Assembly (NCBI GenBank): GCA_029834535.1
Contig: JAQMWT010000587.1
Coordinates: 105,240 to 169,239, forward strand
Length of the DNA stretch: 64,000 nt
Source: Chrysophaeum taylorii
Lineage: Eukaryota; Sar; Pelagophyceae; Pelagomonadales; Pelagomonadaceae
Direction: 5' to 3'
Shown: positions 37,601 through 56,584 of the stretch, piece after piece
How the letters are laid out: every line of letters starts with the position of its first letter
How positions within the stretch are numbered: position 1 is the stretch's first letter
The notes under the pieces: generated by a model
Databases searched by the model: none
The model's input: the letters and a program-made list of their open reading frames with translations, nothing else
What the model was told of the DNA's origin: nothing
Translations under genes and position numbers: made by a program

Positions 37601-40600
37601 CATTCGCGACAGTCAACGCCGCGGTGCTTTGAATACCAGCGGCGTAGAGTGTGCTGGTCCCCGTCACTGCAGCAGTACTCGTGATACCAGCAACCGTAAG
37701 TGTCCCAGCGCTCGCCGTGATCGAGCCCGTGCTTGTGATGTGCGCAGCTTCCGCTGCATTCGCGACAGTCAACGCGGCGGTGCTTTGAATACCAGCGGCA
37801 TAGAGTGTGCTGGTCCCTGTCATTGCGGCAGTACTCGTGATTCCAGCGACTGTGAGAGTCCCGGCGCTTGCCGTGATCGACCCCGTGCTGGTGACATGCG
37901 CAGCCTCCGCGGCATTGGCGACAGTCAACGCCGCGGTGCTTTGAATACCAGCGGCGTAGAGAGTGCTGGTCCCCGTCACTGCAGCAGTACTCGTGATACC
38001 AGCAACCGTAAGTGTCCCAGCGCTCGCCGTGATCGAGCCCGTGCTTGTGATGTGCGCAGCTTCCGCTGCATTCGCGACAGTCAACGCGGCGGTGCTTTGA
38101 ATACCAGCGGCATAGAGTGTGCTGGTCCCTGTCATTGCGGCAGTACTCGTGATTCCAGCGACTGTGAGAGTCCCGGCGCTTGCCGTGATCGACCCCGTGC
38201 TGGTGACATGCGCAGCCTCCGCGGCATTGGCGACAGTCAACGCCGCGGTGCTTTGAATACCAGCAGCGTAGAGTGTGCTGGTCCCCGTCACTGCAGCAGT
38301 ACTCGTGATACCAGCAACCGTAAGTGTCCCAGCGCTCGCCGTGATCGAGCCCGTGCTTGTGATGTGCGCAGCTTCCGCTGCATTCGCGACAGTCAACGCG
38401 GCGGTGCTTTGAATACCAGCGGCATAGAGTGTGCTGGTCCCTGTCATTGCGGCAGTACTCGTGATTCCAGCGACTGTGAGAGTCCCGGCGCTCGCCGTGA
38501 TCGACCCCGTGCTGGTGACATGCGCAGCCTCCGCGGCATTGGCGACAGTCAACGCCGCGGTGCTTTGAATACCAGCGGCGTAGAGTGTGCTGGTCCCCGT
38601 CACTGCAGCAGTACTCGTGATACCAGCAACCGTAAGTGTCCCAGCGCTCGCCGTGATCGAGCCCGTGCTTGTGATGTGCGCAGCTTCCGCTGCATTCGCG
38701 ACAGTCAACGCGGCGGTGCTTTGAATACCAGCGGCATAGAGTGTGCTGGTCCCTGTCATTGCGGCAGTACTCGTGATTCCAGCGACTGTGAGAGTCCCGG
38801 CGCTTGCCGTGATCGACCCCGTGCTGGTGACATGCGCAGCCTCCGCGGCATTGGCGACAGTCAACGCCGCGGTGCTTTGAATACCAGCGGCATAGAGAGT
38901 GCTGGTCCCCGTCACTGCAGCAGTACTCGTGATACCAGCAACCGTAAGTGTCCCAGCGCTCGCCGTGATCGAGCCCGTGCTTGTGATGTGCGCAGCTTCC
39001 GCTGCATTCGCGACAGTCAACGCGGCGGTGCTTTGAATACCAGCGGCATAGAGTGTGCTGGTCCCTGTCATTGCGGCAGTACTCGTGATTCCAGCGACGG
39101 TGAGAGTCCCGGCGCTTGCCGTGATCGACCCCGTGCTGGTGACATGCGCAGCCTCCGCGGCATTGGCGACTGTCAACGCCGCGGTGCTTTGAATACCAGC
39201 GACGTAGAGTGTGCTGGTCCCAGTCACTGCAGCAGAACTCGTGATACCAGCAACCGTAAGTGTCCCAGCGCTCGCCGTGATCGAGCCCGTGCTGGTGACG
39301 TGTGCAGCCTCCGCGGCATTGGCGACAGTTAACGCCCCTGTGCTTTGAATACCAGCAGCGTAGAGAGTGCCTGTCCCCGTCACGGCAGCGGTGCTCGTAA
39401 TTCCTGCGACAGTGAGAGTTCCAGCGCTCGCCGTGATCGACCCCGTGCTCGTGATATGCGCAGCCTCCGCTGCATTGGCTACTGTCAACGCTGCGGTGCT
39501 TTGAATACCGGCCGCATACAACGTGCTCGTTCCAGTAACTGCGGCGGTGCTCGTAATTCCAGCGACAGTCAACGTGCCTGCAGCAGCAGTGATAGATCCA
39601 GTGCTCGTAATGTGTGCAGCCTCTACGGCATTGGCTACCGTCAACGCTGCGGTGCTTTGAATGCCAGCGGCATAGAGAGTGCTTGTCCCCGTCACGGCAG
39701 CGGTGCTCGTAATTCCTGCTACAGTGAGAGTTCCAGCGCTCGCCGTGATCGACCCCGTGCTCGTGATGTGCGCAGCCTCCGCTGCATTGGCGACTGTCAA
39801 CGCTGCGGTGCTTTGAATACCGGCCGCATACAACGTGCTTGTTCCAGTTACCGCCGCGGTGCTTGTAATTCCAGCGACAGTTAACGTGCCCGCAGAAGCA
39901 GTGATAGATCCAGTGCTTGTGATGTGCGCAGCCTCCGCGGCATCAGCTACGGTCAACGCCGCAGTGCTTTGAATGCCAGCGGCGTAGAGAGTGCTTGTCC
40001 CCGTCACCGCGGTAGTGCTGGTGATTCCCGCGACGGTAAGAGTTCCAGCGCTCGCCGTGATCGACCCCGTGCTCGTGATGTGCGCAGCCTCTGCTGCATT
40101 GGCGACAGTCAATGCCGCGGTGCTTTGAATACCGGCAGCATACAACGTGCTCGTTCCAGTCACCGCAGCGGTGCTCGTTACTCCAGCGACAGTCAACGTG
40201 CCTGCAGACGCAGTTATAGATCCGGTACTCGTCATATGCGCAGCCTCCGCGGCATCGGCTACGGTCAACGCCGCAGTGCTTTGAATGCCAGCGGCATAGA
40301 GAGTGCTTGTCCCCGTCACGGCGGCGGTACTTGTAATTCCTGCGACAGTTAGAGTTCCAGCGCTCGCCGTGATCGACCCCGTGCTAGTGATGTGCGCAGC
40401 CTCCGCAGCGTTGGCGACTGTCAACGCTGCGGTGCTTTGAATACCGGCCACATACAACGTGCTCGTTCCAGTCACCGCAGCGGTACTAGTAATTCCAGCG
40501 ACGGTCAACGTGCCCGCAGTAGCAGTGATAGATCCAGTGCTCGTAATGTGCGCAGCCTCTGCTTCATTGGCTACCGTCAACGCTGCAGTGCTTTGAATGC

Positions 40601-43600
40601 CAGCGGCGTAGAGAGTGCCTGTCCCCGTCACGGCGGCGGTGCTCGTGATTCCCGCAACGGTGAGAGTTCCAGCGCTCGCCGTGATCGAGCCCGTGCTAGT
40701 GATGTGCGCAGCCTCTGCTGCATTGGCGACTGTCAATGCCGCGGTGCTTTGAATACCGGCAGCATACAACGTGCTAGTTCCAGTCACCGCAGCGGTGCTT
40801 GTAATTCCAGCGATAGTCAACGTGCCCGCAGAAGCAGTGATAGATCCAGTGCTCGTAATGTGTGCAGCCTCTGCTTCATTGGCTACCGTCAACGCTGCAG
40901 TGCTTTGAATGCCAGCGGCGTAGAGAGTGCCTGTCCCCGTCACGGCGGCGGTGCTCGTGATTCCCGCGACGGTGAGAGTCCCAGCGCTCGCTGTGATCGA
41001 CCCCGTGCTCGTGATGTGCGCAGCCTCTGCTGCATTTGCGACTGTCAATGCCGCGGTGCTTTGAATACCGGCCACATACAACGTGCTCGTTCCAGTCACC
41101 GAAGCGGTGCTCGTAATCCCAGCGACGGTCAACGTGCCCGCAGCAGCAGTGATAGATCCAGTGCTCGTAATGTGTGCAGCCTCTGCTTCTTTGGCTACCG
41201 TCAATGCTGCAGTGCTTTGAATGCCAGCGGCGTAGAGAGTGCCTGTCCCCGTCACGGCGGCGGTGCTCGTGATTCCCGCAACGGTGAGAGTTCCAGCGCT
41301 CGCCGTGATCGAGCCCGTGCTAGTGATGTGCGCAGCCTCTGCTGCATTGGCGACTGTCAATGCCGCGGTGCTTTGAATACCGGCAGCATACAACGTGCTA
41401 GTTCCAGTCACCGCAGCGGTGCTTGTAATTCCAGCGATAGTCAACGTGCCCGCAGAAGCAGTGATAGATCCAGTGCTTGTAATGTGCGCTGCTTCAACAG
41501 CACCCGCTACCGTCAATGCCGCGGTGCTTTGAATACCGGATGCGTAGAGTGTGCTGGTCCCCGTCACTGCGGCAGTGCTCGTGATTCCAGCGACCGTGAG
41601 AGTACCCGCACTCGCGGTGATCGACCCAGTGCTCGTGATATGCGCAGCCTCCGCGGCATTGGCTACCGTCAACGCAGCGGTACTTTGAATTCCGGCCGCG
41701 TAGAGCGTACTCGTCCCCGTGACGGCCGCAGTGCTTGTGATGCCAGCAACAGTGAGAGTCCCAGCGCTCGCAGTTATTGAACCAGTACTTGTGATGTGCG
41801 CTGCTTCCGCAGCGCCGGCGACCGTCAACCCAGCAGTGCTCTGAATACCACTCGCATAGAGCGTGCTGGTTCCAGTGATAGCAGCCGTGCTAGTGATTCC
41901 CGCGACTGTGAGAGTGCCAGACGCGGCCGTTATCGAACCAGTACTCGTGATGTGTGCTGCCTCGAGGGTCGAGGCACCTGTAATTGCTGCCGTACTCGTT
42001 ACGCCGGCGACCGTAAGCGTCCCCGTGGATGCGGTGATGGAGCCCGATGATATGGTTATGGACGCCGAGGTGGTGACTCCGGCGACGGTGAGTGTGCCCG
42101 CAGATGCTGTGATGGAGCCCGCTGATACGGTGATGGAGGCGGAGCTTTCAACTCCCGCAACCGTGAGGGTCCCCGCAGAGGCCGTGATAGAGCCGGCCGA
42201 CACGGTAATCGACGCAGAACTTTCAACGCCGGCAACGGTAAGCGTGCCCGCAGAGGCCGTGATGGAGCCGGCTGCTACGGTTATATCACCGTTGCTCATG
42301 GTGATGTCGCCCGTTGTAATCGTTAATCCCGTCGATGAGATCGTCGCGCCACCGGCGTTTACGAGAAGGCCACCGGCGTCAATAACGAGACCATTCGATC
42401 TGACGACGGCACCGCCGACAACCTCCAAGCCTCCTTTGTTCACAAATGTTCGCGGCGTCCCCGTCACCGAGAAGACCGTGTCCCTTACGCCGTCCTCGTA
42501 GTTGGCAATCTCGAGCAATTTGTATGCGGAACTCGCGTTACGATCTGCTTCCACGTACAGCACGGTGCTTTGGAAGTTATCGAAGGTTGCTCGTACGGTC
42601 ATGACGTTGGAGAGCGAGACGTTTGACGAGAAAATGAATGTGCCGTTGGTCGCCTCAATATCTCCTTCAAACTTGGAGTTGCCCGTCACGGCCAGGTTTC
42701 CCAGGTTCAGGTAGGCGTTGCCGGAGACAAGGATCAAATTGCCCGAATCAATTTGAATGTTTCCTGAGGTGAGTCGGAGGCCGTTGTTGAGCGTCATTAA
42801 GCCCGACGATAGCGTAAAGTCGCCGTACGTGAACGTCGTGTCTCCGTTTCCCTCGATGCGGAATATCTCGACATCTTGACCCCCAGCGCTCGCCTTGATG
42901 AAATTGAAGTCCGAGCTGCGCTCTCGCTCGGCCTTCATGCGCAGCATGCTATTGTCGAAACTGGCTTCGGTTGCGTGGAGCAGGAGAATGTCGACGTCGT
43001 CGTCACTCACGGCAGCGACCGAGTTGCTGCACGCAACACCCTCAAAGTTAGTGTAGCACGAACACTGGCCGGTGGAAAAGTCGCACGTCCCACGGCCCGA
43101 ACAGTACAAATAGTCTTTGACGTTGTCTGCAATCTCATCCGCAATCGAACATGTCGGTCTGCCATTCGGGTGCGCGACGGCTTGGCTGACGTCGCAGGTG
43201 AACGAGCTGAGCGGGGGATTGCCGTCGTGGTGGAAGATATTATTTTGGATCGGATAGTGTGGCCAAGCGAGGAATTGCACGACCCACGTGCCGCCCTTGT
43301 CCGCCGTCGAGGCGAGGCGCGAGCACTGTACGCTTGCCACGTTGTCGAGACTCTCCCAAGCGCTTGCGCACGCGTCTCCTGTCCACTCCGAGGCATTGGC
43401 GTTGAAGGAGAAGCTCAAACCGTCAAACGTGATGGAAAACGTGCCGTTGAGCTGCGACTGGGCGTCTGTGACGTTAGTAGTGATGTTGATCGTGCGGTAG
43501 TAGCCCGCGCCGTCGAGGGGGTCAAAGCCGCGCGGGCACATGCCTGCGCATTCAAACTCAGATGGAAGGCTGCCGGCGCGGGACGAGGACTCACGAATAT

Positions 43601-44221
43601 CGCACTCGGGGCCCGTCACGCCCCAGTCGCAGAAACAAGACATGATGACCTCGCTCTCCCAGTTGGCGTATTCGACGCCCATTCCGTCGCCGCCGTAGGG
43701 ATCGCCCGGTGCGGTGTCGGGTCCGTACTCGTGCCCGAGGTTGTAGAGAGTGATACATTTGCCGTTATCGTTGCAGCTCGCCGTGCAGTCAACTAAGACG
43801 AGAATGTCACACGCAAGTAGCAAAGGCTACTCACGGCGCTGGCACGCTTCTCCGGTGAAGCCCGAGGGACAGACGCACGTGCCCTGCGCACAAACAACGC
43901 TCGTCGACGAGCTGCCCGGCACGACCGACTCACGTCGTCTCGGTTGCACGCGCCCACTCCCGCGCACTCAAGTTGGGCATGTGCGCGGTTCTTCGCATAG
44001 GGTTTGTCGACCCAGGCCGTCGCGTTCGGACACAAGCCTGCGCGGCGTGACATCGTCGAGGCGCGAGACGCACGCCCGGAGCAGTCTGGGTACGATGTCC
44101 ACAGGTCGTCGCACTCGCAGACGTTTTCGTTGCCGCAGTCTCCGTGTCCGCTGCAGTGGTTCGGACACGCGGCGCGCGCAACGACGAGCAATGCTGCGAA
44201 GCGCACGAGACGGCCGCCCAT
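31608..44221 (-). CDS. Giant secreted repeat protein with S74 chaperone end
   Basis: Exons 44221-44074, 44037-43934, 43883-43835 and 43792-31608, with introns of 36, 50 and 42 nt (all GT-AG), give about 4,161 residues. The N-terminus is a signal peptide (MGGRLVRFAALLVVARA) followed by EGF/tenascin-like Cys-rich modules (CPNHCSGHGDCGNENVCEC; CVCPSGFTGEACQR rebuilt by splicing; SCNDNGKC). About 400 residues of mixed beta sequence follow, then some 55 tandem repeats of AGTLTVAGITSTAAVTGTS type. The last ~115 residues match peptidase S74: TSSDVRLKRNI with the Ser and Lys of self-cleavage, THFGFIAQEVARVFPEIVYE, VDAVGPLLVEAFRSL and a closing coiled-coil-like helix. In phage tail spikes and MYRF this domain trimerises a fibre and then cuts itself off. 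A secreted trimeric beta-solenoid fibre is my inference. Confidence 0.85.
31990..37580 (-). repeat. Coding tandem repeats, 207-bp (69-residue) register
   Basis: Roughly 27 units lie in the C-terminal half of the giant gene. Each unit is one 18-residue block (LTSGGSITASAGTLTVAG) plus three 17-residue blocks of the form I-(T/Q)-S-T-A-A-x-T-x-x-x-T-L-x-x-A-G or -E-A-A-H. Between about 33.5 and 35.6 kb the units alternate in a 414-bp pair that is nearly identical five times, so this part was recently homogenised. One shorter unit interrupts near 36.05 kb. Short strand-turn modules of constant length suggest a beta-solenoid. Confidence 0.85.
37580..41960 (-). repeat. Coding tandem repeats, 156-bp (52-residue) register
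   Basis: Roughly 28 units in the N-terminal half of the array. Here each unit is ITSTGSITASAGTLTVAG plus two 17-residue blocks, one block fewer than in the 207-bp register. From about 37.6 to 39.2 kb a 312-bp pair repeats almost without change, including the alternation of CCCGTCACTGCAGCAG and CCTGTCATTGCGGCAG. Units toward 41.9 kb are more diverged. Confidence 0.85.
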
Positions 44222-44271
44222 CGCGGGGCGTTAGATTCCCTAACGGCTCTCTTTAGGGTCTAGTGTTGCTT

Positions 44272-44465
44272 TCAGACGGAAGGTTATCGACGAGTTGGTT
44301 GTCAGTCACATCGCGGTCTCCTCGTCGCATGGCGACAAGCTTGATGGTCACTCTCCGCCGACCGACCTTTCGGCGCTCCTCGTCTACAGGCCCGTGATTC
44401 CGGACTGGCTCCTGTCGGTCCGGCCTGGCTCCCATGCTCGGGAGAGGTCTGAAGTTAGTTAGTTA
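44272..44465 (+). mobile_element. 5'-truncated SINE copy
   Basis: Matches only the 3' half of the family, from CAGACGGAAGGTTATCGACG to the GTTAG tail. GTTGCTT at 44265-44271 and 44466-44472 is the likely target duplication. 5' truncation is typical of incomplete target-primed reverse transcription. It sits 50 bp before the start codon of the giant gene, inside its promoter or leader region. Confidence 0.75.
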
Positions 44466-44592
44466 GTTGCTTACAGCGCCTAGGGTTTTTTATTGTTCGA
44501 CTGCTAAAAGGGGGGTCTTGCGAACTTGTTGAGGACGCAGGTGCGTGGTCGTCCTTGGGTTGTAATAAGCGCGCGCAGTTCTCTGCAGTTGA

Positions 44593-44880
44593 CGAAAATC
44601 GAGATACCGTTGCATCATCAGGCCCCGCGCCGTCGCGATTAACGCACTCATTTACGATGTCGACCAGACTGAGCTTCCGTCCGACCTTCAAGAGAGGTTT
44701 ATACGGATGAAATACGACCTCCGCCCGGACAAAATCAACGTCACGATCGATCTCGTGGCCTTTGATGAAAGCGTCGAAGAACACGAAGCGCGAAATGGTC
44801 GTCGAAATGGCCAGCAAAGGTCAAATCTCCTCTTCTACCACGAAGACGAGAACACGACTCTACAGGATCTAGCCCAAGTG
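44593..44880 (+). pseudogene. Small unknown ORF cut by the copia insertion
   Basis: From 44593 one plus frame is open to the insertion site (AINALIYDVDQTELPSDLQE; KYDLRPDKINVTIDLVAFDE; NLLFYHEDENTTLQDLAQ). Without the retrotransposon the frame would run on after 56584 for six codons to a stop. No family is recognised, and the minus strand is also open here, so it may be chance or a relic of a longer gene. Confidence 0.3.
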
Positions 44881-45194
44881 TGCAGAGAAATCTGCTGCCT
44901 CTTACCCTTACCCGTCCGTTGAGAACGTGATCTCTTCCTTACCCCTTCTTCTTCCTTTCTACACAATCTAATACTCCTCTGATTTGTGCCTACGCTCATC
45001 ATCATGGTCTAGCGCGTCCCGAGGTATGTAGCACTATACACTTAACCTTTCTCGTGTAGTTCTAGATGCCGCCTGTCTTGTTCTGAGGATATAGGGAACA
45101 TAACCTTTCATTCCCCGAATTAAAATGCCAGACGTTCACGATGAGACGTGATGGTTTCCCAGGTGACTTACCACTGCTTGCTAAATGCTCTGTA
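44881..45194 (+). repeat. Left LTR of copia element
   Basis: Starts TGCAGAGAAATCTGC and ends CTCTGTA; the right copy ends CTCCGCA, so the canonical terminal CA has mutated to TA here. It aligns with 56266-56579 without gaps. It should contain promoter and R region, though no TATA box is certain. Confidence 0.92.
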
Positions 45195-45208
45195 GGTTAT
45201 GGGCCCAG
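45195..45208 (+). promoter_or_regulatory. Primer-binding site, initiator tRNA-Met anticodon arm
   Basis: GGTTATGGGCCCAG lies directly after the left LTR. Its complement CTGGGCCCATAACC is the anticodon stem-loop of eukaryotic initiator tRNA-Met (CAT anticodon). Priming from an internal tRNA cut, rather than the 3' CCA end, is known for Drosophila copia. Confidence 0.8.
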
Positions 45209-45712
45209 GCGGGTCCCTGAGAAACCATGTGTCAACATGCACGTAACCTATGGGTATTGGACTGTTACCGCGCCAGCCCAGCCTCGCCATGTGACACGCT
45301 CGTCAATATATAGCCATTACCATTGGGCTGTATATAATATCTTTTTGCACACGTGATCGTGTAACCTTGTGTGCACCTGTTCATAGCATTGTATTGTCAT
45401 GTCAATGTTGATGTGTGTGTAATTGGCTAACCTGTACTCTTGCACACATGTTATGGAATATTTTGGGTACGTCCACTCGTACATTCCATGGCAATGCACT
45501 TAACAAGCTCCTTGAGAACACCAAAACTAACCAGCTGCCTGAGTGACTACGCTTAGCGACACTACTCTGGACTCACAGCTTGCACAGTCGTCATATAGAC
45601 ACATTTTCCATCGAAACGATGAGTGTACATAGACCCCGATAGACAGACCCCCTTAGAAAGTCTAGACAGTGTCAACTGCGTGACTGAACCCACAGGTTCC
45701 CCGTCGACTGCT

Positions 45713-47480
45713 ATGGCAGAACACGCAGCACGAGCCGCACCCAAGGCGATCACAGGTGCGGATATATTGAAGCTCGAAGCTCCTGTAGTTGAGTTTCTTA
45801 ACGATGGAAATCGATTTCAGCTTCAGACTCGCAAGGTATCCTTGCAAATCAAGCATATCAAGCAATTACTACGGTCCAGTCATGCCGATGCTTTCCTCGA
45901 GTACGACTCGTATGAAGCATATACTCGGTCATGCAAGGACTACGAAATCCTCCGGAATCAAATTCTCGATCGCGTTTTCCTGGAATGGAAGACCGATAGG
46001 GCTGCTGATCTCCGTTTAGCTGTTGATGAATTACCCCCTGAGTATCAGGAATGGCATTTCACCAACGAAGCTTTCCCCCACCTACCTGATGCAGAAGTAG
46101 CTCAGCTAACTACTGTCTGTTACGACTATGAAGTCAAGGCACTACGTCCTGAAATCAATGCTCGTTTCTTAGAAGAGGAACGAATCTTAAATCGCGCGCA
46201 CCCGAAGGCACTAGCTTTCGACACTCGTGTTTTTGCCCCGGTTACCATGTTTTCGTTAACTGCAGCTGACTGGCACACTTATCAGAACACGTATGCTACA
46301 CATTCTTGCATACTTACTTCAATCTTGAAAGTGTTGGAAAACCGGCACTTGCGGCCTGGCCCGCCATCAATGAGGTATACAACAAAAGTTATTTACCCAA
46401 CAAGGCTCGAGCTATTATGCTCATCGCCTTTAGTCACTACGAGTCTGTTACGACTACTGATGTGTCTTATTTGAAACAGCAATTTAACTCTGTTGTTTAT
46501 AATCCTAACTGGCATGTCCATGTATTTATCGAAGCTGTCCTAGCATTTAGGCAAATCTCTTACCAACTTAACCAGGAAGAGACTGACCTTCAATTCGACT
46601 TTGGCACTCTCTGCAGGAAAATCTATGAAGAGATACATCGGCATTATGCCGATAATACCAGCAACAACCGCTACGATCGTGGTTGGGTAGATTGGTGTTA
46701 TATGTACGAAACCCGATCTTCATCTCGACCTGTACCAGAAGCTGAACGATTGTGTCACCCTACCAACCCTAGCTACATTTTAGAATACGCATTAGACCTT
46801 TGCAATGTCGTATCAAATGGGTCGAACAAAAGACGCTTAGAACGTCCTGTTTCTTGGCAACCCTATGTCGAAGGTTTATCATCTCAACCAAAGCCAAAGT
46901 TACTACTTACACGTACTTTGGACTCATCGGACAAAAGTCTGACTCAAACTGCTAACACACTCGTCTTCATCACTTCGCCCCAACCTCGTACATCATCCAC
47001 GTTTAATGCTAGACGCTTGCGTAACTCTAATGATGCTCGCCAGCCTTTCTCTCGCAGCGATTTATCGTATTATCGTCCTGGTGATTCTTACGTCACCAAG
47101 AAAACTGCCGGACAGTCCCATGACCGTCCAATTTACCCCCGCACTTTTGACAGGTCCTCTCGGTCTAACATGAAATTATTAGATCGAACAAACCACACCT
47201 TAAACACCCTGCGAGAACAGTGTAGCGAACTCACGAAGCATGTGACAGATAATGATACCACGGCTCAGCTACAACATAATATCAACAAGTTATTTGAGAC
47301 TCTGTTACAATCAGCTGATATTCTGTCAACGACATCTACTGAGGACAACAGTAGTTTACTTCGTCTAAACGAACAGCTCATGTTTGCAGAAGACATCATT
47401 TATGATGTAGACGTTCATCTATCCTCGATCGAAAAGTCGTTAAACTACCTACTACAAACACACAGGGTAACCCTTCCAAT
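45713..47480 (+). pseudogene. Gag region of copia element
   Basis: Begins at the ATG at 45713 (MAEHAARAAPKAITGADILK). The N-terminal third resembles the helical Gag of copia-type elements (FTNEAFPHLPDAEVAQL; WHTYQNTY). The frame changes near 46300 and continues (GKPALAAWPAINEVYNKSYL onward) through a region rich in Ser, Arg and Thr. Near the end is SIEKSLNYLL at 47425-47449. No C-x2-C-x4-H-x4-C knuckle is seen, so nucleic-acid binding may rest on basic segments or on the 3' ORF. Confidence 0.6.
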
Positions 47481-47534
47481 ACTGCGTCTAACCTCTTTAC
47501 CGCTTCCGCCATCTCGGCTTTACCACCAGCATTA

Positions 47535-48434
47535 TTGTCCTCGCTATCTTCACAGGTCCAATCTGCCCTCAACCTACCATCAGAAGCCGAAACCAAAAGG
47601 GATGCCGATCATACTTCTCTATCGTCATTTGACGAAAAGCACGGCATGGCTGATGAGGCTGACGAACCATCACCACCTGTTCAACCGATCATTATTCCAA
47701 CGAATCTGCTATTGCTGATGAATTTCTTTACAGCCAGCCTCTCCACTACTTGCCCACATTCGGAAAACGCCTTCCTCACCAACTACATGAAGGTAAACAG
47801 TGTCCCTCCACATTGCTCTTTTCTATATTTTGACTCTTGTGCTACCATCTCATTGATGTCCACCTACGATTTCGCAATACCCAATCATATAATTCCATTG
47901 GACTCCAAATACGCGCCGATTGTTATTCAGACGGCAACAGGACAACAACGGGCATCACACATGATGTTAACACGCAACATCGTTATTCCCCTACCAGATC
48001 ATCCACAAGTTGGCTATGTTAAGATCGACTTCGCTTTATGTCTTCAGCCAGTGCATGACCGACATCTCGCTATCCTGAGCATGCTCGAGTGGAACCAGAC
48101 GAACCTTACCACTGTGTTCAATGATCGAGCTGAGCCAAAGCTCAGCGCTGTCACGAGCCGCATAGACAAAGATGTACGTATACCCATACACTATGTAGCA
48201 GCTAATTTACCCGCTCTCCCTTGTCTCACTTACAACATCGCGCGCGACAAGCGGCTGGAACTTCGCTCCCTTGCATTTCCCCTCAAACGATACCATGGAA
48301 ACAGGGATCTACGGGCATACTACAATTACCTACTCCAACGAGTTTTACCAGATCGGCCGTGGACTCGCCCTTTGGTTCTCAATCTTCGGAAACAGAACAA
48401 ATTTGTTCAGCAAAATACGCAGCCAGTAACTTGA
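47535..48434 (+). CDS. Copia aspartic-protease region
   Basis: Open for 300 residues. FLYFDSCATISLMSTYDF around 47824-47880 fits the flap-and-active-site start of a retrotransposon aspartic protease, with DSCA in place of the more usual DSGA/DTGA. HLAILSMLEWNQTNL farther on resembles the hydrophobic second half (ILG-type) of the fold. The frame continues into the next domain after a single TGA at 48432-48434, so protease and methyltransferase-like parts were probably one polyprotein. The Gly-to-Cys change at the active site is unusual, and activity is uncertain. Confidence 0.6.
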   Translation: MSSLSSQVQSALNLPSEAETKRDADHTSLSSFDEKHGMADEADEPSPPVQPIIIPTNLLLLMNFFTASLSTTCPHSENAFLTNYMKVNSVPPHCSFLYFDSCATISLMSTYDFAIPNHIIPLDSKYAPIVIQTATGQQRASHMMLTRNIVIPLPDHPQVGYVKIDFALCLQPVHDRHLAILSMLEWNQTNLTTVFNDRAEPKLSAVTSRIDKDVRIPIHYVAANLPALPCLTYNIARDKRLELRSLAFPLKRYHGNRDLRAYYNYLLQRVLPDRPWTRPLVLNLRKQNKFVQQNTQPVT

Positions 48435-49490
48435 CTACTCCCAGTGTTTCTCTCACAAGAGTTCAATCTCCGCAAACCTTCTGTCATGTTACTTTGTTCT
48501 GGTTTGTCAACTCCGGCGTTCCTGTCTCAAGCCACTAATGACTTAGGCTTAAATATCAATGTAAAAGTTGTTGTTGAGTCTGATGATACGCTTGTTCGTA
48601 TGTTACGCTACCGTTTTCCTACTGTATTATTATTTGAATCTCTCCCCGCCTTTATTAACCACCTTCACCTAATCTCACCAGAGGAAAGGCGCACATTCTA
48701 TTGTGATATAATTGAGATCACTCCTCCCTGCACAAACAGGAATTTACTAAAACAGCAAAAGTCAGAAGACTTACACAGCCTGCTGGACGATTCTCTTTTC
48801 GACAGCATGCTGTCTGTCATCAAGCTACTCCAGCCCTTGGTACTACTGGCTGAGATGACGCCTCCGCATAAGTACTGTCATCAAGACCACATCACAGTGG
48901 CCAACCTTATCTATACTACCCTTGATTACTGTGTCGATGTTGTTGATAGGTTCCCGACCTACCTATGTGGCGACTACCAATCTAGAGAAAGGTGGATATG
49001 CATCGCACGCAGATATTCTACTGGACCAATTAAACTATCATCGTGGCCCATCCTCCATCCACGCCCCTTCCTAAAGATCGTGGATGATCTACAAGCTATT
49101 CCCAAGCGCCTTTGGCTACCTAACCACATATCCAAAGACTGGATCCGGGTGTTCCCCGATCCTCCATATATACCCGTTCCTAAAACGTTTGCACCTTACT
49201 CTCGCACAGGTTCTGTTCAGCTTACTATGGCTGACCTTGAATCCCTCAATATGTTACTGCTTCGCCTTCACTCACAACAGGCTCACGAGCAACGTACTCA
49301 CTCTGTTCAATCCGAGTGTACTTACCATCAGTTGTGCTTTAAACGCTCCTCTATGGAGCCATTACCCAATGCAACACATCCTATACACGTCAAGATTTTT
49401 ACAATCCTCTATAACGTGTTTGCAAGCTTACATACTAACTCACCCACTCCTGTGTCCTATTACATAACCGTTTTCGAAACTAACCAACCG
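48435..49490 (+). CDS. Cytosine-C5 DNA methyltransferase-like domain in copia Pol
   Basis: Follows the protease in the same frame. Counting from the GTG at 48444, conserved blocks of C5-cytosine methyltransferases appear in order and spacing: motif I-like SVMLLCSGLSTPAFLS (13-28); an acidic ribose-binding position in VVVESDD; motif IV DIIEITPPCTNRN with the PPC catalytic Cys at 94-96 (48723-48731); motif VI-like LLAEMTPP keeping Glu in place of ENV; and motif VIII YQSRERWICIA (from 48978). The look is nearest DNMT3-type enzymes. Motif X is not evident, and target recognition may lie in residues 190-350. Methyltransferases carried by retrotransposons have been reported in dinoflagellates and charophytes; this would be a further case. 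A distant non-enzymatic relative remains possible. Confidence 0.62.
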
Positions 49491-49704
49491 TCACACAGGT
49501 TATTACTTACAACCTCATCAACATCACACAACTCCTACTTCTTAACTGGTGGCCACCATTCCGACGGCAACCTCACCATAGAGAACGCCACCACAAAAAC
49601 TCCACTCCCATCAACGCCTTTGGGAGCACGTATACGTTCACTGCTTCCGACATCCCCCGCGACCGGGACAGGTCCATATATCTGGAGCCGTTTATGGGTT
49701 ACTT

Positions 49705-51831
49705 GTGGATAGTCCAAGCCCTTCCCCAAGTTGGCTCCGCTACCACCTATGGCACCGCCATACAAAACCTCGTGTCCAGATGCGCTCTCGTGATGCCTGG
49801 CTGCCTTACCTACAAGGCCACCGACAACTCTTTCGATTACAAGGATTCTCTTTTGCTCTGGAAGATCATCACCTATCTCATAGTCGCTATATAGGGTACC
49901 TTCGTGGAAGTGACCGCAAACTCGGCTCTAAAATCCACTCAATGCTTGCTCCATTGCCAACCGTCCGAGGGTATGCCAATATTATTTTACTCGACCCTCG
50001 CAACGGGAAATTACGCTACCCCACTCGACCGGAGTTGATTCGTGCTAACAACCACACCAAACAACAGGAATCTTTCCTCTTGTCTCTACGCCATGACCTT
50101 TGCTGTGACATGCTCAGCAATGCTCTGCCTGCCGGTACGTACAGCACTCTGTACAAGCACCTTTCGCTCATCGTCGCCGATATTAAATCCCTTATGTTGG
50201 ACCCTACCTTCCAACATACTGCTGCCGTGACGAAGAAATCCTATGTATCCAATTTCATGACCGTTGACCAAGCCTCCACCACGTGCAGCACAGATACCTT
50301 GTCTTTGGCACAATCTTTTATGATGTCTATTTCCAGCAACTGCTTGACCGAAATGTCGTTAAACTATATATCGTCGTCCTACGAAGATACTCTCGCTACT
50401 CGTGATAATGAGGATGCACCTCCAAGTGACCCTGCTGTGCACCAGGATGACGACGCACCGCCCCCCTGCCTTAGACACCGAACTCAAGTTCGATGTTCGG
50501 CGCAAACGGCACATTCCTGCTCATCCATTCCTCGTAAGTCCCTCGCACACGGATCCACCGAATATCTCAATGCCAAAGAACGTGCTAATCGCTTTCACCG
50601 GGTGCATCACTGCCCCGACAACGTCGCTGCCAAGGCCCCCAACGTACTTGCTCGCCCTGGATTCTCTGCTTCTGACATACCATATCGCGACTTATGCACC
50701 GACTGCATCGCACACAACAAGCGCCACCCGCACAAGCATTTCAATGCGACCAAGCCTTCTTTTGAGCAAACCCACAAAGCCGGTGAAGTCTGGGCGTGCG
50801 ACGGCGGCTATGTGACCATCCCATCCGAATGGGGAGGCTTCACACATATCATCGTCTTCAAGGAACTCATTTCGAAATTTCTCTTGGTGTACTTTACACG
50901 CACCACCAACGCCACGGAGTTCACTCAAGCTCTGGATTTTGTGTATGACTTCTGTCGTACACAACTCAATGTGCACATGCGCACCCTCTACTCCGATGCA
51001 TTCAAGCCTTACTTTAGCCAGCACATTACCTCCCCGTACCGCGTCGATAAGGGCATTCAACTCATTGCCTTCCCGCCGTACATGCACCACTTTAACTTTG
51101 AAGTTGAGTCTGCCATCGGTTTCATCGCCTCCGCCTCCTCAACTCGCCTTCGTTCTCTCCTTAATGCTCACTATCGTGGCGCCAAGATCGTGGAACCCGC
51201 TATCATGTTCCCATGGGCGGTGATACACACCGTTCAAAGCTATAACCTTCTCCCGAACGCCACGCTCGAGCGCATTCATCATGCTATTCTGAGTCCGCAA
51301 CAGCTACTCTACAACCAACTCAGCACTCCCCAACACGATATGCTCAAGATTTTTGGCGCTGAATGTTACCTCCTATTGGAGCCCCATGAACACCACAAGT
51401 GGGAACCGTGCCGCCGCAAATATCTGTATCTCTGTTGCGCCAACGCACAAAACCCGCTCGTCTCCCCACGCGTCGACCATCTCGCTGACGTCGTCCTCAA
51501 CCCTGAAAACGGACAAATTCGTGTTTCGTCCAAGCTGCAATTCCTCTACATGTTGCAGCATCCTACTCCTGATCCTGAACTTGCTCCTCCGCCTCACGCT
51601 CCTCCCGCGCCTTTCTCGCTCACACCCCACGCCGCTATCCAAGACCATGTCATTCAGAGGGGGACAAGGACTCCTCATCCTCAGAGGGGGCACTCCCCAC
51701 CTCCTTCAGCTCCTCCTTCTTCGTCCCCTACTCCGGCCTCTTCTCCCTCTTCTGACGCTACCGCCGACGAATCTGGCTCTATGTCACCGCCGCCCTTGCT
51801 TCCTTCTTACAAAGACCTTTGCACAAGATGA
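49705..51831 (+). CDS. Copia integrase
   Basis: The HHCC zinc finger reads FHRVHHCPDN, then DLCTDCIAH. The DDE catalytic core follows: VWACDGGYVTIPSEWGG (first Asp), RTLYSDAFKPYF (second Asp), and FNFEVESAIGFI (Glu). A C-terminal part and a Pro/Ser-rich linker end at a stop at 51831. The first ~60 residues in this frame are probably not coding, because the neighbouring frame (up to about 49890) reads more like protein (YLEPFMGYLWIVQALPQVGS). EMSLNYISS at 50350-50373 sits just before the zinc finger. All catalytic residues appear present. Confidence 0.82.
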   Translation: MDSPSPSPSWLRYHLWHRHTKPRVQMRSRDAWLPYLQGHRQLFRLQGFSFALEDHHLSHSRYIGYLRGSDRKLGSKIHSMLAPLPTVRGYANIILLDPRNGKLRYPTRPELIRANNHTKQQESFLLSLRHDLCCDMLSNALPAGTYSTLYKHLSLIVADIKSLMLDPTFQHTAAVTKKSYVSNFMTVDQASTTCSTDTLSLAQSFMMSISSNCLTEMSLNYISSSYEDTLATRDNEDAPPSDPAVHQDDDAPPPCLRHRTQVRCSAQTAHSCSSIPRKSLAHGSTEYLNAKERANRFHRVHHCPDNVAAKAPNVLARPGFSASDIPYRDLCTDCIAHNKRHPHKHFNATKPSFEQTHKAGEVWACDGGYVTIPSEWGGFTHIIVFKELISKFLLVYFTRTTNATEFTQALDFVYDFCRTQLNVHMRTLYSDAFKPYFSQHITSPYRVDKGIQLIAFPPYMHHFNFEVESAIGFIASASSTRLRSLLNAHYRGAKIVEPAIMFPWAVIHTVQSYNLLPNATLERIHHAILSPQQLLYNQLSTPQHDMLKIFGAECYLLLEPHEHHKWEPCRRKYLYLCCANAQNPLVSPRVDHLADVVLNPENGQIRVSSKLQFLYMLQHPTPDPELAPPPHAPPAPFSLTPHAAIQDHVIQRGTRTPHPQRGHSPPPSAPPSSSPTPASSPSSDATADESGSMSPPPLLPSYKDLCTR

Positions 51832-52235
51832 CCTCATTCTTGTCCCAGGTTCCAAACAGCCTAACACTCGCAAGGTCACTTCTATGCAAACTATCCGAGC
51901 CCGATTACAAGCGTCTACTATTGGTGCTTACAAAGCCGCTGGTGGCAAGCTCGCCGATTTCCGCTGGGATCTTCGCCACCACTTTCTTACGTTCAAGTCT
52001 CCCGCCCTCTCCGCCCTTCATCTCCGTGGTGGTATCCTCTGGTCTGCTATCTGCTCAGAGGGGGAACATGCGTTGTTAGCTCGTCTTCTTCTCCCGTTGC
52101 GTACTGACTTGCTTGCCCGCTACCCGCACGTCGATGGTTACTTCGCCCACGCCAAGTGCGCATCCAGCATCCCAGCTGCAGCCTTTTTAACTGCTGATGG
52201 CTCACCTACGTGCCGTATTCCTCAGCCCCTTTACC
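51832..52235 (+). pseudogene. Integrase-RT linker, frameshifted
   Basis: Coding-like sequence continues in the +1 frame (DDLILVPGSKQPNTRKVTSM; LRTDLLARYPHVDGYFAHAK) until the nested SINE. The frameshift at about 51825 is therefore recent or programmed. It was part of the Pol polyprotein between integrase and reverse transcriptase. No domain is recognised. Confidence 0.5.
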
Positions 52236-52604
52236 CTTACCCTGATCGCCGACGGCATGGTTGCGATGGAGGACGGTGCCTCATGAATCCTGAGCCTTGC
52301 GAGGGCATCCGCCCTCCCGGCGTAGGTTGGCACCTATTCGCCTCTCGGGCGGGCCGGTTGGCAGCCGGAACGTTCGCAGTGGGACGGGGTAAGGCCGGGG
52401 GGCGCAGACGGAAGGTTATCGACGAGTTGATTGTCAGTCACATCGCGGTCTCCTCGTCGCATGGCGACAAGCTTGATGATCACTCTCCGCCGACCCACCT
52501 TTCGGCGCTCCTCGTCTACAGGCCCGTGATTCCGGACTGGCTCCTGTCGGTCCGGCCTGGCTCCCATGCTCGGGAGAGGTCTGAAGTTAGTTAGTTAGTT
52601 AGTT
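52236..52604 (+). mobile_element. SINE inserted in copia pol, sense orientation
   Basis: Full-length copy starting CTTACCCTGATCGCCG and ending in a TTAG tail. It interrupts the open frame between integrase and reverse transcriptase; the downstream frame resumes at SAFTEHAAAFG. The target duplication is short or eroded (TTTA on both sides). Confidence 0.8.
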
Positions 52605-54773
52605 TTATCTGCGTTCACTGAGCACGCTGCTGCCTTCGGCACTTCATCCTTACAATATGCACTTACGTTCCTGGCGCCGACCAGCTTTATTAATCACAAC
52701 TCATCTGAGTCTGGCGCTACTTCTGCATCTCTGGCTGACTTGGAGGAATACCTTCTGGTCTCTACAGAGTTTATCACCCAGGTCTTACGTACCGACCCTA
52801 CTATCCACATCCAACTGGAATCTGCCCCTACTACTCCTACCGACGCTGTTTCCGCTCATCCCGAAGTTGCGCACACTGCCTCGACCGCAACGTCGCTAAA
52901 CTATAATTCACCAGCCACTGTTGGTCCTGACGAATATAAGGTCCAAGAAGCAGACGTTTCCATTGACGAATATAAACTTAAGTGCCTCCACGGTTTGTCG
53001 CCTGGAAACAGGCACGCCTACCTCAAGGCCATCGCCAAGGAACTCCACGACATTATCCGCTTTGACTGCTTCAAACTTTCCTTACCCGACGGTGTCTCTC
53101 GTCCTATTGACAGCAAGATGGTGCTGAAGATTAAAACAGACTCTGCAGGCAAATACGTTAAGCACAAGGCTCGCCTCGTACTATGTGGCTTCCTAGCATC
53201 TCTTGGCGCCGATTTCTTTGGTACCTTCAGCCCCATGGCCACTATGACCGCAATCCGGGTACTACTAGCTATTGCAGCATACAAGCAATTGCCTGTTTAC
53301 CGTGCAGACGTCCCGAACGCCTTCGTTCAGTCTGACATCGATGCCAATGTCTATGTTCAGTTACCAGACGGCATCAAGCTTATCGACCCCGATGACGCTA
53401 AGTACAAGGGCCGACGTCTACCGAAACTGCTGAAGTCACTTTATGGACTTAGGCAATCACCATCCCTTTGGAACAAAGAGATAGACGGCTTCTTCCGTAG
53501 CCTTGGTTACAAACGCCTGCATTCGGACTCTTGCCTATATGCTCGAGTATCCGCACATGCTAAGTTCGTCGTATGCAGTCTGTCTGTAGACGACATTGTT
53601 ATTGTGTCCAATGACGACCCTCTTCGTACTGAATTACAGGATGCCCTCCACAAACGGTATGCTGTAGAGCAGTTTGAACCTGTCCATACCCTCCTAGGCA
53701 TGCGTGTGTGTCGCACATCTGACGGCTCCATTTCTCTGGATGTGCAAGCCAAGCTGGATGAACTCTTCGCTGATCACCCAGTCTTGCAGCAACTGACCCC
53801 GCTTAAATATCCTATGTCATCGTCCTTCAAGTATAAAGATGGCACTCCCAGCACTGAAACAGAGTTGTACATCAATTCGCACTTTGCCACCCTCCTTGGC
53901 AAGCTGGTGTTCATGCAAGTTGCCTGCAGACCTGACTTCTCGCAAGCCTTGGGCAGATGTTCGCGTGGTATGCATGCACCCACGTATGTTCACGTCCAAA
54001 TGCTAGAGCATTTGCTTCGCTACCTCAAGAAGCCGGAAAACCGCTCACTTCGCCTCTGGTTTCACCCTAAAGGTAATGCCATTGAAGCTCACCTTCGCAC
54101 TGTCTCCGCTAATCGAATTGATCTATCCACTGTGGTCGACTACCAACCACAGGATGTATCTACTGGACAGTTTGACCCCTTAGTTGCCATGGTTGACGCT
54201 GACAATGCCCCTTCCTTAGCACAGGAAGATAGGAAATCTACCACCGGGTTTGTCTTCTATCTTTTCAACTGCCTTATTGGTTGGAAAAGCAAACTTCAAC
54301 CGATTGTCTCCTGCTCAACTCACGAAGCTGAGTTGATTGCCCTCAGTATTTGTGCTGATGAAGCTGTTTGGCTACGCAAACTGCTGTTGGAACTCTCCTT
54401 TGTCGTCAACCCCACCTTCTACGTCAACAATGCTAATGGTGAGAACACCGCTGACCCTCTTGACTTCGATGACAATGACAACCCAATTGCTGAAGATATG
54501 CGCTTCATCAGAAGCCTACCTCTTTTGTCTGACAATGCTGCCGCTGTTCACACCTCTAATAACCCAGATGGGTCCTCTAGATCCAAGGCACTGTCGACTA
54601 GATGGTTTAAGATTCGTGAGTACATATCCCTTCAGAAAATACGAGTTCATCATGTTCCTGGCAAGCTAAACGTGGCGGATGGTTTTACAAAGCCACTTGC
54701 TGCTGAGTTTTCCACCTTTCGCTCTCTACTCGGTATGCATCACGCCTCTGACGACAATTCTTTACAGGATTGA
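52605..54773 (+). CDS. Copia reverse transcriptase and RNase H
   Basis: After a lead-in with TATSLNYNSPA (52887-52919), the RT domain shows HDIIRFDCFKLSLPDG, then DVPNAFVQSDIDANVYVQLP, LLKSLYGLRQSPSLWNKEI and the catalytic box LSVDDIVIVSND. The box is SVDD rather than the usual YVDD, an odd substitution at the Tyr. RNase H follows: AMVDADNAPSLAQEDRKSTT, LIGWKSKLQPIVSCSTHEAE and KIREYISLQKIRVHHVPGKL. The segment is open and full-length, ending at a stop at 54773. Domain order IN-RT-RH is standard copia. Confidence 0.9.
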   Translation, partial: LSAFTEHAAAFGTSSLQYALTFLAPTSFINHNSSESGATSASLADLEEYLLVSTEFITQVLRTDPTIHIQLESAPTTPTDAVSAHPEVAHTASTATSLNYNSPATVGPDEYKVQEADVSIDEYKLKCLHGLSPGNRHAYLKAIAKELHDIIRFDCFKLSLPDGVSRPIDSKMVLKIKTDSAGKYVKHKARLVLCGFLASLGADFFGTFSPMATMTAIRVLLAIAAYKQLPVYRADVPNAFVQSDIDANVYVQLPDGIKLIDPDDAKYKGRRLPKLLKSLYGLRQSPSLWNKEIDGFFRSLGYKRLHSDSCLYARVSAHAKFVVCSLSVDDIVIVSNDDPLRTELQDALHKRYAVEQFEPVHTLLGMRVCRTSDGSISLDVQAKLDELFADHPVLQQLTPLKYPMSSSFKYKDGTPSTETELYINSHFATLLGKLVFMQVACRPDFSQALGRCSRGMHAPTYVHVQMLEHLLRYLKKPENRSLRLWFHPKGNAIEAHLRTVSANRIDLSTVVDYQPQDVSTGQFDPLVAMVDADNAPSLAQEDRKSTTGFVFYLFNCLIGWKSKLQPIVSCSTHEAELIALSICADEAVWLRKLLLELSFVVNPTFYVNNANGENTADPLDFDDNDNPIAEDMRFIRSLPLLSDNAAAVHTSNNPDGSSRSKALSTRWFKIREYISLQKIRVHHVPGKLNVADGFTKPLAAEFSTFRSLLGMHHASDDNSLQD

Positions 54774-54796
54774 AGATGCCTAACCCTAGTGACCGC

Positions 54797-55160
54797 TAAC
54801 TAACTAACTAACTTCAGACCTCTCCCGAGCATGGGAGCCAGGCCGGACCGACAGGTGCCAGTCCGGAATCACGGGCCTGTAGACGAGGAGCGCCGAAAGG
54901 TCGGTCGGCGGAGAGTGACCATCAAGCTTGTCGCCATGCGACGAGGAGACCGCGATGTGACGGACAACCAACTCGTCGATAACCTTCCGTCTTCGCCCCC
55001 CGGCCATACCCCGTCCCACTGCGAACGTTCCGGCTGCCAACCGGCCCGCCCGGGAGGCGAATAGGTGCCAACCTACGCCGGGAGGGCGGATGCCCTCGCA
55101 AGGCTCAGGATTCATGAGGCACCGTCCTCCATCGCAACCGTAGTCGGCGATCAGGGTAAG
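54797..55160 (-). mobile_element. SINE nested in copia, antisense, 9-bp duplication
   Basis: AGTGACCGC occurs at 54788-54796 and 55161-55169, directly flanking a 364-bp full-length copy whose TAAC repeats are the complement of the TTAG tail. Its other end reads GGCGATCAGGGTAAG. This is the cleanest copy for defining the family's ends. Confidence 0.9.
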
Positions 55161-55250
55161 AGTGACCGCAACGTCGTTAAACTAGCAAACTAGCCCTGGC
55201 CCTACCTTCTTTTGCCACATTTTTTTGTACGTGTCGTGTGAGTGTCACTC

Positions 55251-56108
55251 ATGTCTTTTTCTTGGCACTCTCGTGGCCGTGGCCGTGGCCGTGGCATCTC
55301 TCCAGTCGTTCGAAGGACAATTCCACGCCTACTTGCACAGCATGTGTTGACCGAAACGTCATTTAACTACTCACTTCCCTCATCAGAATCTACTCTGGAA
55401 ATGTCTTCGCCATCGACACACCCTGCTCCTTCTGCCTCGCCTGATGATGTCGATGCATTGCGTCAACAAGTCGAACAACACCAGGAAACTCTTCGCCTAT
55501 ATATTCGCAAGGTCAACACCCTTAGCGCTGAGAATCTATCTCTGCACACAGATCTACAGGCAGCCATTGCTTCAATTACCTCCCTGGAAAAACGGCTCTT
55601 TCCTCCTACAGCCAATGCACACGTGTTGCTTGTAACACTGTTCAAGATCACAGAGCTACTGTCTCGCTTAACGCTAACAGCTCATGACCAATATGCCGCC
55701 AACCATTCCTCCACGGACGATCACCTCCATCGTCTGCGTGATAATTTGCTCTCGTGTATTCAAAGCATTCCCTTCGCATGTGAATCGGAAGACCCTTCTA
55801 TCCTCTCGGATCCGTTCGCTGAGTCCAACTTTTTGGAAAACCAACTGGACACCCTACAACTTGACTCACTAGTGCCATCCCTACTGAATGCTTTACTTGC
55901 ACTCACGTTTCGTATGGTACCACACCATTCTACTATTGGCGTTCACCGCCTGACAGCAGAAGCTGACGAAGACGATACCGATACTCTCGAACCAGTAACG
56001 TCCACCACCTCAGATAGCTTTAACACACTGTCTGTCGTACCTGTGTTTCGTAATGCTCTGTTCAAAAGCATCAAGTCGACTCTCAGCTCCACCAAGTCCA
56101 AGCCCTAA
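55251..56108 (+). CDS. Extra 3' ORF of copia element, RG-rich coiled coil
   Basis: About 285 residues between RNase H and the right LTR, where copia elements normally have nothing. It starts MSFSWHSRGRGRGRGISPVV; the RG repeats could bind nucleic acid. Next is LTETSFNYSLPSSES at 55344-55388, then a coiled coil (DVDALRQQVEQHQETLRLYI; SAENLSLHTDLQAAIASITS). No transmembrane segment or signal peptide is seen, so it is not envelope-like. A chaperone or second Gag-like structural role is a guess. Confidence 0.65.
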   Translation: MSFSWHSRGRGRGRGISPVVRRTIPRLLAQHVLTETSFNYSLPSSESTLEMSSPSTHPAPSASPDDVDALRQQVEQHQETLRLYIRKVNTLSAENLSLHTDLQAAIASITSLEKRLFPPTANAHVLLVTLFKITELLSRLTLTAHDQYAANHSSTDDHLHRLRDNLLSCIQSIPFACESEDPSILSDPFAESNFLENQLDTLQLDSLVPSLLNALLALTFRMVPHHSTIGVHRLTAEADEDDTDTLEPVTSTTSDSFNTLSVVPVFRNALFKSIKSTLSSTKSKP

Positions 56109-56258
56109 GACACCCTGTTACACTCTTGATGCCTCTTATGTGACCTCTGCGACCAAGACTGTACTCTCCTTCCTTTCCCTTTTTTTTTTTTTTTTTTGCT
56201 TCATCATCATCTTTCTCAAGAGATGCTCTACAGTCGCACCTTGCGCTTAAGACATCTC

Positions 56259-56265
56259 GAGGGGG
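56259..56265 (+). promoter_or_regulatory. Polypurine tract of copia element
   Basis: GAGGGGG directly abuts the right LTR and would prime plus-strand DNA synthesis. Confidence 0.75.
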
Positions 56266-56579
56266 TGCAGAGAAATCTGCTGCCTCTTACCCTTATCTGT
56301 CCGTTGAGAACGTGATCTCTTCCTTACCCCTTCTTCTTCCTTTCTACACAATCCAATAGTCCTCTGATTTGTGCCTACGCTCATCATCATGGTCTAGCGC
56401 GTCCCGAGGTATGTAGCACTATACACTTAACCTTTCTCGTGTAGTTCTAGATGCCGCCTGTCGTGTTCCGAGGATATAGGGAACATAACTTTTCATTCCC
56501 CGAATTAACCTGCCAGACGTTCACGATGAGACGGGATGGTTTCCCAGGCGACTTACCACTGCTTGCCAAATGCTCCGCA
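56266..56579 (+). repeat. Right LTR of copia element
   Basis: TGCAGAGAAATCTGC to CTCCGCA. Followed by the AAGTG target duplication and then flanking DNA (TCCCGAGCAG). Confidence 0.92.
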
Positions 56580-56584
56580 AAGTG

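Follow-up and report, generated by a model that had tools for sequence, protein, structure and literature searches.

A domain homologous to C5-cytosine methyltransferases is found, in the window (the whole 64,000-nucleotide stretch of DNA analysed here), within a copia retrotransposon and between its protease and integrase. Related domains occur in three copia sequence groups of the host genome that I hereafter call A (the family of the window element), A' (a sister of A, first met in the flank of locus L028) and B. That the domain of the window family is a divergent C5-cytosine methyltransferase seems to me very probable. The whole chain, in which the copia Pol polyprotein contains a C5 methyltransferase between protease and integrase and this enzyme acts on DNA during retrotransposition, is a reading for which belief and doubt are evenly balanced.

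One copia (RVT_2) LTR retrotransposon spans positions 44881-56579 of the window, which is part of contig C587 of a 70.8-Mb genome (Table 1). The preliminary description had located the domain between the protease and the integrase of a copia element. The copia assignment is borne out by the reverse transcriptase (RT), which is of the copia type (PF07727 (RVT_2), 140.7 bits, 7.9e-41) and lies downstream of the integrase, and by the LTRs and the target-site duplication. The identification of the two flanking enzymes rests in part on inspection: the integrase zinc ligands HRVHH and CTDC were picked out by eye, next to an rve (PF00665) match of 19.8 bits that is below the cut-off of 32.6, and FDSCATIS was assigned by eye because the protease frame has no Pfam match. 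Both LTRs start with TG; the 3' LTR terminates in CA and the 5' LTR in TA. The frames of the window copy are broken by frameshifts in gag and in the linker and by some 370 bp inserted into the RT linker, while the methyltransferase frame is intact, and this copy looks like one degraded, dead-looking member of an old copia lineage. Copy C42 has a single 1691-aa frame running from the methyltransferase domain through the RT, and copy C311 has an uninterrupted 892-aa gag-protease frame followed by a TGA and then by a frame of 1230 aa; their LTR pairs are 92.7% (C42) and 90.8% (C311) identical.

The inserted sequence of about 370 bp recurs in inverted orientation downstream of the RT frame (54796-55160), and 196 bp of it are also found to the left of the element, at 44273-44468. 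Elsewhere in the window, the minus strand contains a 4072-aa open frame at 31608-43826, made up mostly of tandem repeats (units of 207, 414 and 156 bp), which looks like the gene of a giant repetitive surface protein; an EGF-like, cysteine-rich piece is found near it on the same strand (43793-44230), and 65 perfect CAAA units form a microsatellite at 19676-19937. An Rfam search of the window gave nothing at gathering scores.

Table 1. Coordinates in the window of the copia element, its coding regions and the motifs of the methyltransferase domain.
Feature	Position	Strand	Basis or remark
Target-site duplication AAGTG, left copy	44876-44880	.	matches right copy
5' LTR, 314 bp	44881-45194	+	aligned with 3' LTR: 12 mismatches in 310 bases, 96.1% identical
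gag and protease	45623-48431	+	three frames in window copy (45623-46471, 46270-47715, 47406-48431)
Protease-like FDSCATIS	47829-47852	+	by eye
In-frame TGA, then CTAC, between protease and methyltransferase frames	48432-48434	+	
C5-cytosine methyltransferase domain, about 350 aa	48435-49490	+	motifs, homologues, sister families, selection
Motif I block CSGLS	48495-48509	+	followed by Glu E48
Motif IV PPC	48723-48731	+	contains Cys99
AEMTPP with motif VI Glu (Glu140)	48849-48866	+	
Motif VIII QSRER	48978-48992	+	
Linker, methyltransferase to integrase	49491-50595	+	function not assigned; frameshifted in window copy
Integrase	50596-51021	+	HRVHH 50596-50610, CTDC 50695-50706, rve core match 50773-51021
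Insertion in RT linker, about 370 bp	about 52233-52602	.	absent from copy C42
Reverse transcriptase and RNase H region	52599-54770	+	RVT_2 match 53079-53747; RNase H by position
Purine run GAGGGGG ahead of 3' LTR	56259-56265	+	
3' LTR, 314 bp	56266-56579	+	paired with 5' LTR
Target-site duplication AAGTG, right copy	56580-56584	.	matches left copy

The motif I-like, PPC, motif VI Glu and QxRxR blocks that had been noticed beforehand are all present in the frame that is open from 48435 to 49712 (425 codons), and I take the motif numbering of C5 methyltransferases (I, IV, VI, VIII) to apply to them. C21, G23, E48, P98, C99, E140, Q182, R184 and R186 are invariant in two homologues from other sources that are 38-42% identical to the domain. 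A match to the methyltransferase profile PF00145 is obtained from relatives and not from the window itself: a Pfam search with the window domain translation alone did not match PF00145, while homologue P0003 scored 23.0 bits, over the cut-off of 22, P0002 20.2, P0006 17.7 and family B 32.1. In the proposed comparison with DNMT folds, the two best structural rows found with the predicted structure are both DNMT1 and rank above unrelated Rossmann folds, but the model is of low confidence. An NCBIfam search of P0001 and P0002 gave no match. PDB sequence searches returned no methyltransferase among 11 rows with alignment A2, two at E 1.7 and 1.8 with A5, two at E 0.072 with A1 and, with family B, 8yf3 at E 0.02 and HhaI at E 0.084. 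Scans by tblastn of viral contigs (with P0001, A2, A4 and A5) and of genome contigs (with A2), which detect only relatives sharing the chosen peptide patterns, confirmed no viral or prokaryotic near relative, and with the 855-aa methyltransferase-plus-linker frame as query none of 6022 candidates reached E <= 1.

The domain is repeated many times in the host genome. Matches number at least 119 for A (115 of 1222 candidates scored), at least 150 for A' (150 of 979) and at least 109 for B (102 of 686), some copies being split over two rows; scoring was confined to the best candidates, so that the true numbers may be higher. As to further copies with an intact frame, for which a search had been suggested beforehand, 24 of the best 30 of the 119 A rows have no stop inside the domain. 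Cys99, Glu140, Arg184, Arg186, Glu48 and Pro98 are conserved in all of these 30 copies and Gln182, Pro97, Cys21 and Gly23 in 29, and Glu185 is changed to a stop in one; the catalytic Cys and the motif VI Glu are also invariant in alignments A2 and A6, the latter comprising A plus B. Conservation of PPC and QxRxR across copies, one of the tests set by the preliminary description, is therefore nearly complete among the A copies sampled, but it is not strict beyond them: PPC is replaced by SPC in L008 and in A' copies and by SRC in L028, and QxRxR, which is kept in A and in nearly all A' rows read (the A' locus L068 has QPRGR), has lost its Gln in the family B domain.

Across the same 30 copies, dN is 0.0173 and dS 0.0838 in the A domain, giving a dN/dS of 0.206 (pooled pN/pS 0.217; codon bootstrap 0.155-0.302), with 0.159 for the protease part and 0.462 for the covered part of the linker. 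Picking copies by their similarity to the window protein favours a low dN; the linker, taken from the very same copies, nevertheless has a ratio twice as high. The A methyltransferase domain has thus been under purifying selection during the spread of the element. The corresponding ratio for the family B domain is 0.247 (12 copies).

The A' domain is about 50% identical to that of A. Family B is, by its domain content, also a copia family: in addition to PF00145, one 1952-aa frame at locus L054 contains matches to rve (17.2 bits, under the cut-off) and RVT_2 (133.2), and a protease-like DGGAS, found by eye, precedes the methyltransferase. The A and B domain profiles align over 287 columns with a probability of 95.5 and a score of 67.0, as compared with 22.2 for the reversed B profile and 20.5 for the best of 40 column shuffles, and the A and B Pol proteins can be aligned over their whole length with 21% identity (BLOSUM45, no composition correction). 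Because both the domain profiles and Pol align, the domain was probably already carried by the ancestor that A, A' and B share. When single sequences of A and B are compared, the signal is clear for the integrase (65.5, shuffles 19.5) and the RT (222.9, shuffles 15.7), barely above background for the methyltransferase (20.9 versus 16.6) and absent for the linker (16.9 versus 19.9). A check that started from the RT covered the first 30 of 150 RVT_2 genome rows (1670 candidates), which were matched by eye to the A and A' lists. A listed A or A' domain lies upstream on the same strand in 17 of them, and 3 have little or no contig room (C487 was fetched, and the contig ended); all 3 further sites fetched carry an A-type domain, or fragments of it, upstream, the remaining 7 lying outside the check. 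No domain-free copia element was met among the RVT_2 sites examined in this way.

In family A, the protease frame ends in a TGA precisely where the methyltransferase frame starts. The sequence TGACTAC is present in 28 of the 30 copies (L029 has TGACCAC, and L015 has no stop), and the frame ahead of the TGA is shifted in some copies (L011, L028). Work on fungi and mammals has described UGA CU(A) as a core motif of readthrough (PMC4207609). Conservation of the seven bases says little here, since the A copies are closely alike; the corresponding stop in A' is the better argument for readthrough. The one A' copy covered, that of L028, shows a TGA in frame about 25 residues ahead of motif I, with CGC as the next three bases. 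In the B element L054, no stop is encountered from before DGGAS through the RT.

A PF00145 search of the host genome returned 123 matches, a list from which the window element is absent and which by my own count comprises 2 host genes, 56 B-like, 63 C-type and 2 D-type rows. The 56 rows cover mid-profile positions as B does (ten loci read, L037-L046). The 63 match profile positions 1-77 only, and the four loci read (L047 on C235, L048 on C686, L049 on C29 and L052 on C677), which are mutually related at the DNA-translated level, define family C; L050 (C260) and L051 (C57), which match the profile end, define family D. Family C is gypsy-type to judge from its domains: a single frame of L048 holds PF00145 (23.5 bits) ahead of RVT_1 (47.9) and RNase H, and a later frame of L047 holds RNase H together with an H2C2 integrase domain. 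The D domain of L050 matches PF00145 with 34.0 bits and is followed by a frame without a Pfam match; the presumed gypsy nature of D rests on a by-eye likeness to C and on 37% domain identity. Catalysis by the C and D domains is uncertain because the ENV of motif VI is not recognisable in either. Profile comparison gave no link of A or B to the C/D domains (probabilities 0.5 and 0.1), though a link may exist, the profiles being thin; an uptake of a methyltransferase by the gypsy-type elements independently of copia would fit.

The two host genes are L035 (C634), a single 360-aa frame (PF00145 69.6), and L036 (C621), whose 2086-aa frame includes a cysteine-rich stretch (65.4); I take the former to be a Dnmt2 and the latter a DNMT5 by their looks. 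A frame for an antenna protein adjoins the Dnmt2-like gene, and its best PDB matches are PCPI, VCPI and FCP chains, presumably the chlorophyll a/c antennae found in algae whose plastids are of the red type. The supposition that the host belongs to an algal lineage different from those with known retroelement-borne DNMTs fits, because of this antenna-like neighbour and because the Symbiodinium copia elements are reported to be without DNMT (PMC5890265). A separate capture of the methyltransferase by copia of the host lineage is likely.

An attractive scheme for family A is that ribosomes would read through TGA-CTA, yielding a gag-protease-methyltransferase-integrase-RT fusion, and that the methyltransferase would be packaged together with the integrase and the RT. 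The packaged enzyme might then methylate the new double-stranded cDNA, or else the target site, either ahead of integration or in the course of it, and the methyl mark could make the new copy host-like or protect it against a host reaction to DNA that lacks methylation; the DNMT5-like enzyme of the host could keep up CG marks afterwards. The exact substrate and the benefit to the element are guesses. For the suggestion made beforehand, that such an element could methylate its own cDNA or alter host silencing, a surplus of CpG transitions between copies would have been supporting evidence, and none was seen. A broader version, in which the methyltransferase would be a standard selected part of the copia machine in A, A' and B, gypsy-type C and D would have converged on it independently, and A would be expressed through readthrough and methylate its cDNA before integration, is put forward tentatively, doubt outweighing confidence.

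A first alternative is that the domain is a C5-methyltransferase relative that, like Dnmt2, methylates RNA (the element RNA or the tRNA primer) and not DNA. C5 enzymes of the same fold act on tRNA as well as on DNA, RNA methylation is discussed for LINE versions (PMC5890265), and CpG transitions between A copies are not in excess: transitions at CG are not raised overall, with values of 0.0226 for C and 0.0662 for G as compared with 0.0450 and 0.0426 elsewhere, so that deamination of methyl-CpG has left no clear mark in the A copies. Too young an age of the copies, a sequence context other than CG or an absence of methylation may each account for this. For CpG, the observed/expected ratio of A elements lies at 0.91-0.98 (0.76 within the A domain), compared with 1.02 for B, 1.04 for D, 1.16-1.21 for C and 1.26-1.27 for the remainder of the window; for TpG it is 1.21-1.25 in A elements as against 0.89-1.02 in that remainder; the A-element ratios could reflect a weak old methylation trace or merely a different base use. 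Speaking against RNA as the substrate, the domain profile matches the host Dnmt2-like protein (probability 1.4) less well than the DNMT5-like one (11.4), both matches being weak, and DNA activity is reported for retroelement versions of the enzyme, two DIRS DNMTs methylating CG in yeast (PMC5890265). I consider action on RNA unlikely, if a serious competitor to action on DNA.

Just as unlikely, in my estimation, is that the domain has kept its fold and remained under selection but has lost catalysis, and serves as a structural, nucleic-acid-binding or SAM-binding part of Pol. Such a role would accommodate the reading EMT of motif VI in A, the loss of the QxRxR Gln in B and the unrecognisable ENV of C and D, but not easily the retention of Cys99 and Glu140 by every one of the 30 A copies and their invariance in the joint alignment of A and B. 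That the domain is no methyltransferase at all, its motifs having arisen by chance in an unrelated Rossmann or other domain, is improbable: a chance motif match was rejected on the PF00145 matches of P0003 and family B, which have the same block order, on the structural rows, and on an A-B profile score far in excess of its controls. Mere nesting or misassembly of a host methyltransferase gene and a copia, with the domain outside the element, is suggested by nothing more than the broken frames and nested insertions of the window copy and was dismissed as next to impossible in view of the 119 matches at separate places, the continuous frames of C42 (methyltransferase to RT) and of B, and the domain upstream of all 3 further copia RT sites fetched.

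DNA methylation usually silences retrotransposons, and retrotransposons that carry a methyltransferase turn methylation-based silencing around. The presence of methyltransferase domains in several element families of one genome suggests that DNA marking may help elements to spread, and a small genome of 70.8 Mb with many copies is a setting in which the role of the enzyme can be asked.

De Mendoza et al. 2018 (PMC5890265) reported retroelement-borne DNMTs under purifying selection, carried in Symbiodinium by LINE and DIRS elements and in Klebsormidium by a gypsy element. A literature search at the level of titles and abstract starts, outside subscription papers, preprints and repeat databases, found no copia with an enzyme between protease and integrase. 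One sentence of a 2025 paper (PMC12344493), citing the 2018 study, places DNMT3 in 'LTR Copia and DIRS'; it names a copia carrier, as in A, but the section gives no arrangement, host or sequence, and the mention may be a slip, since the K. nitens element of the cited paper is a gypsy. In Ectocarpus, an enzyme of the N4C or N6A type is reported in a Sola transposon (PMC12477816). Tca2 of Candida albicans (PMC2194720) resembles A in being an LTR retrotransposon with pol behind an in-frame UGA; its UGA lies between gag and pol, whereas the TGA of A separates the protease frame from the methyltransferase, an enzyme that the Tca2 abstract does not mention. SymbioDIRS-Dnmt3 and SymbioLINE-Dnmt of Symbiodinium (PMC5890265) are, like A, multi-copy retroelement-borne DNMTs, but their carriers are DIRS and LINE elements, which integrate by other routes. 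KnitGypsy-Dnmt3 of Klebsormidium nitens (PMC5890265) likewise combines an algal LTR Pol with a C5 methyltransferase under purifying selection; it is a gypsy element with an enzyme of the DNMT3 class in a streptophyte host, whereas A is a copia whose DNMT class is not assigned. The advance over these known cases lies in the copia superfamily, in the position between protease and integrase, in the several sequence groups and in the gypsy-type carriers found beside them.
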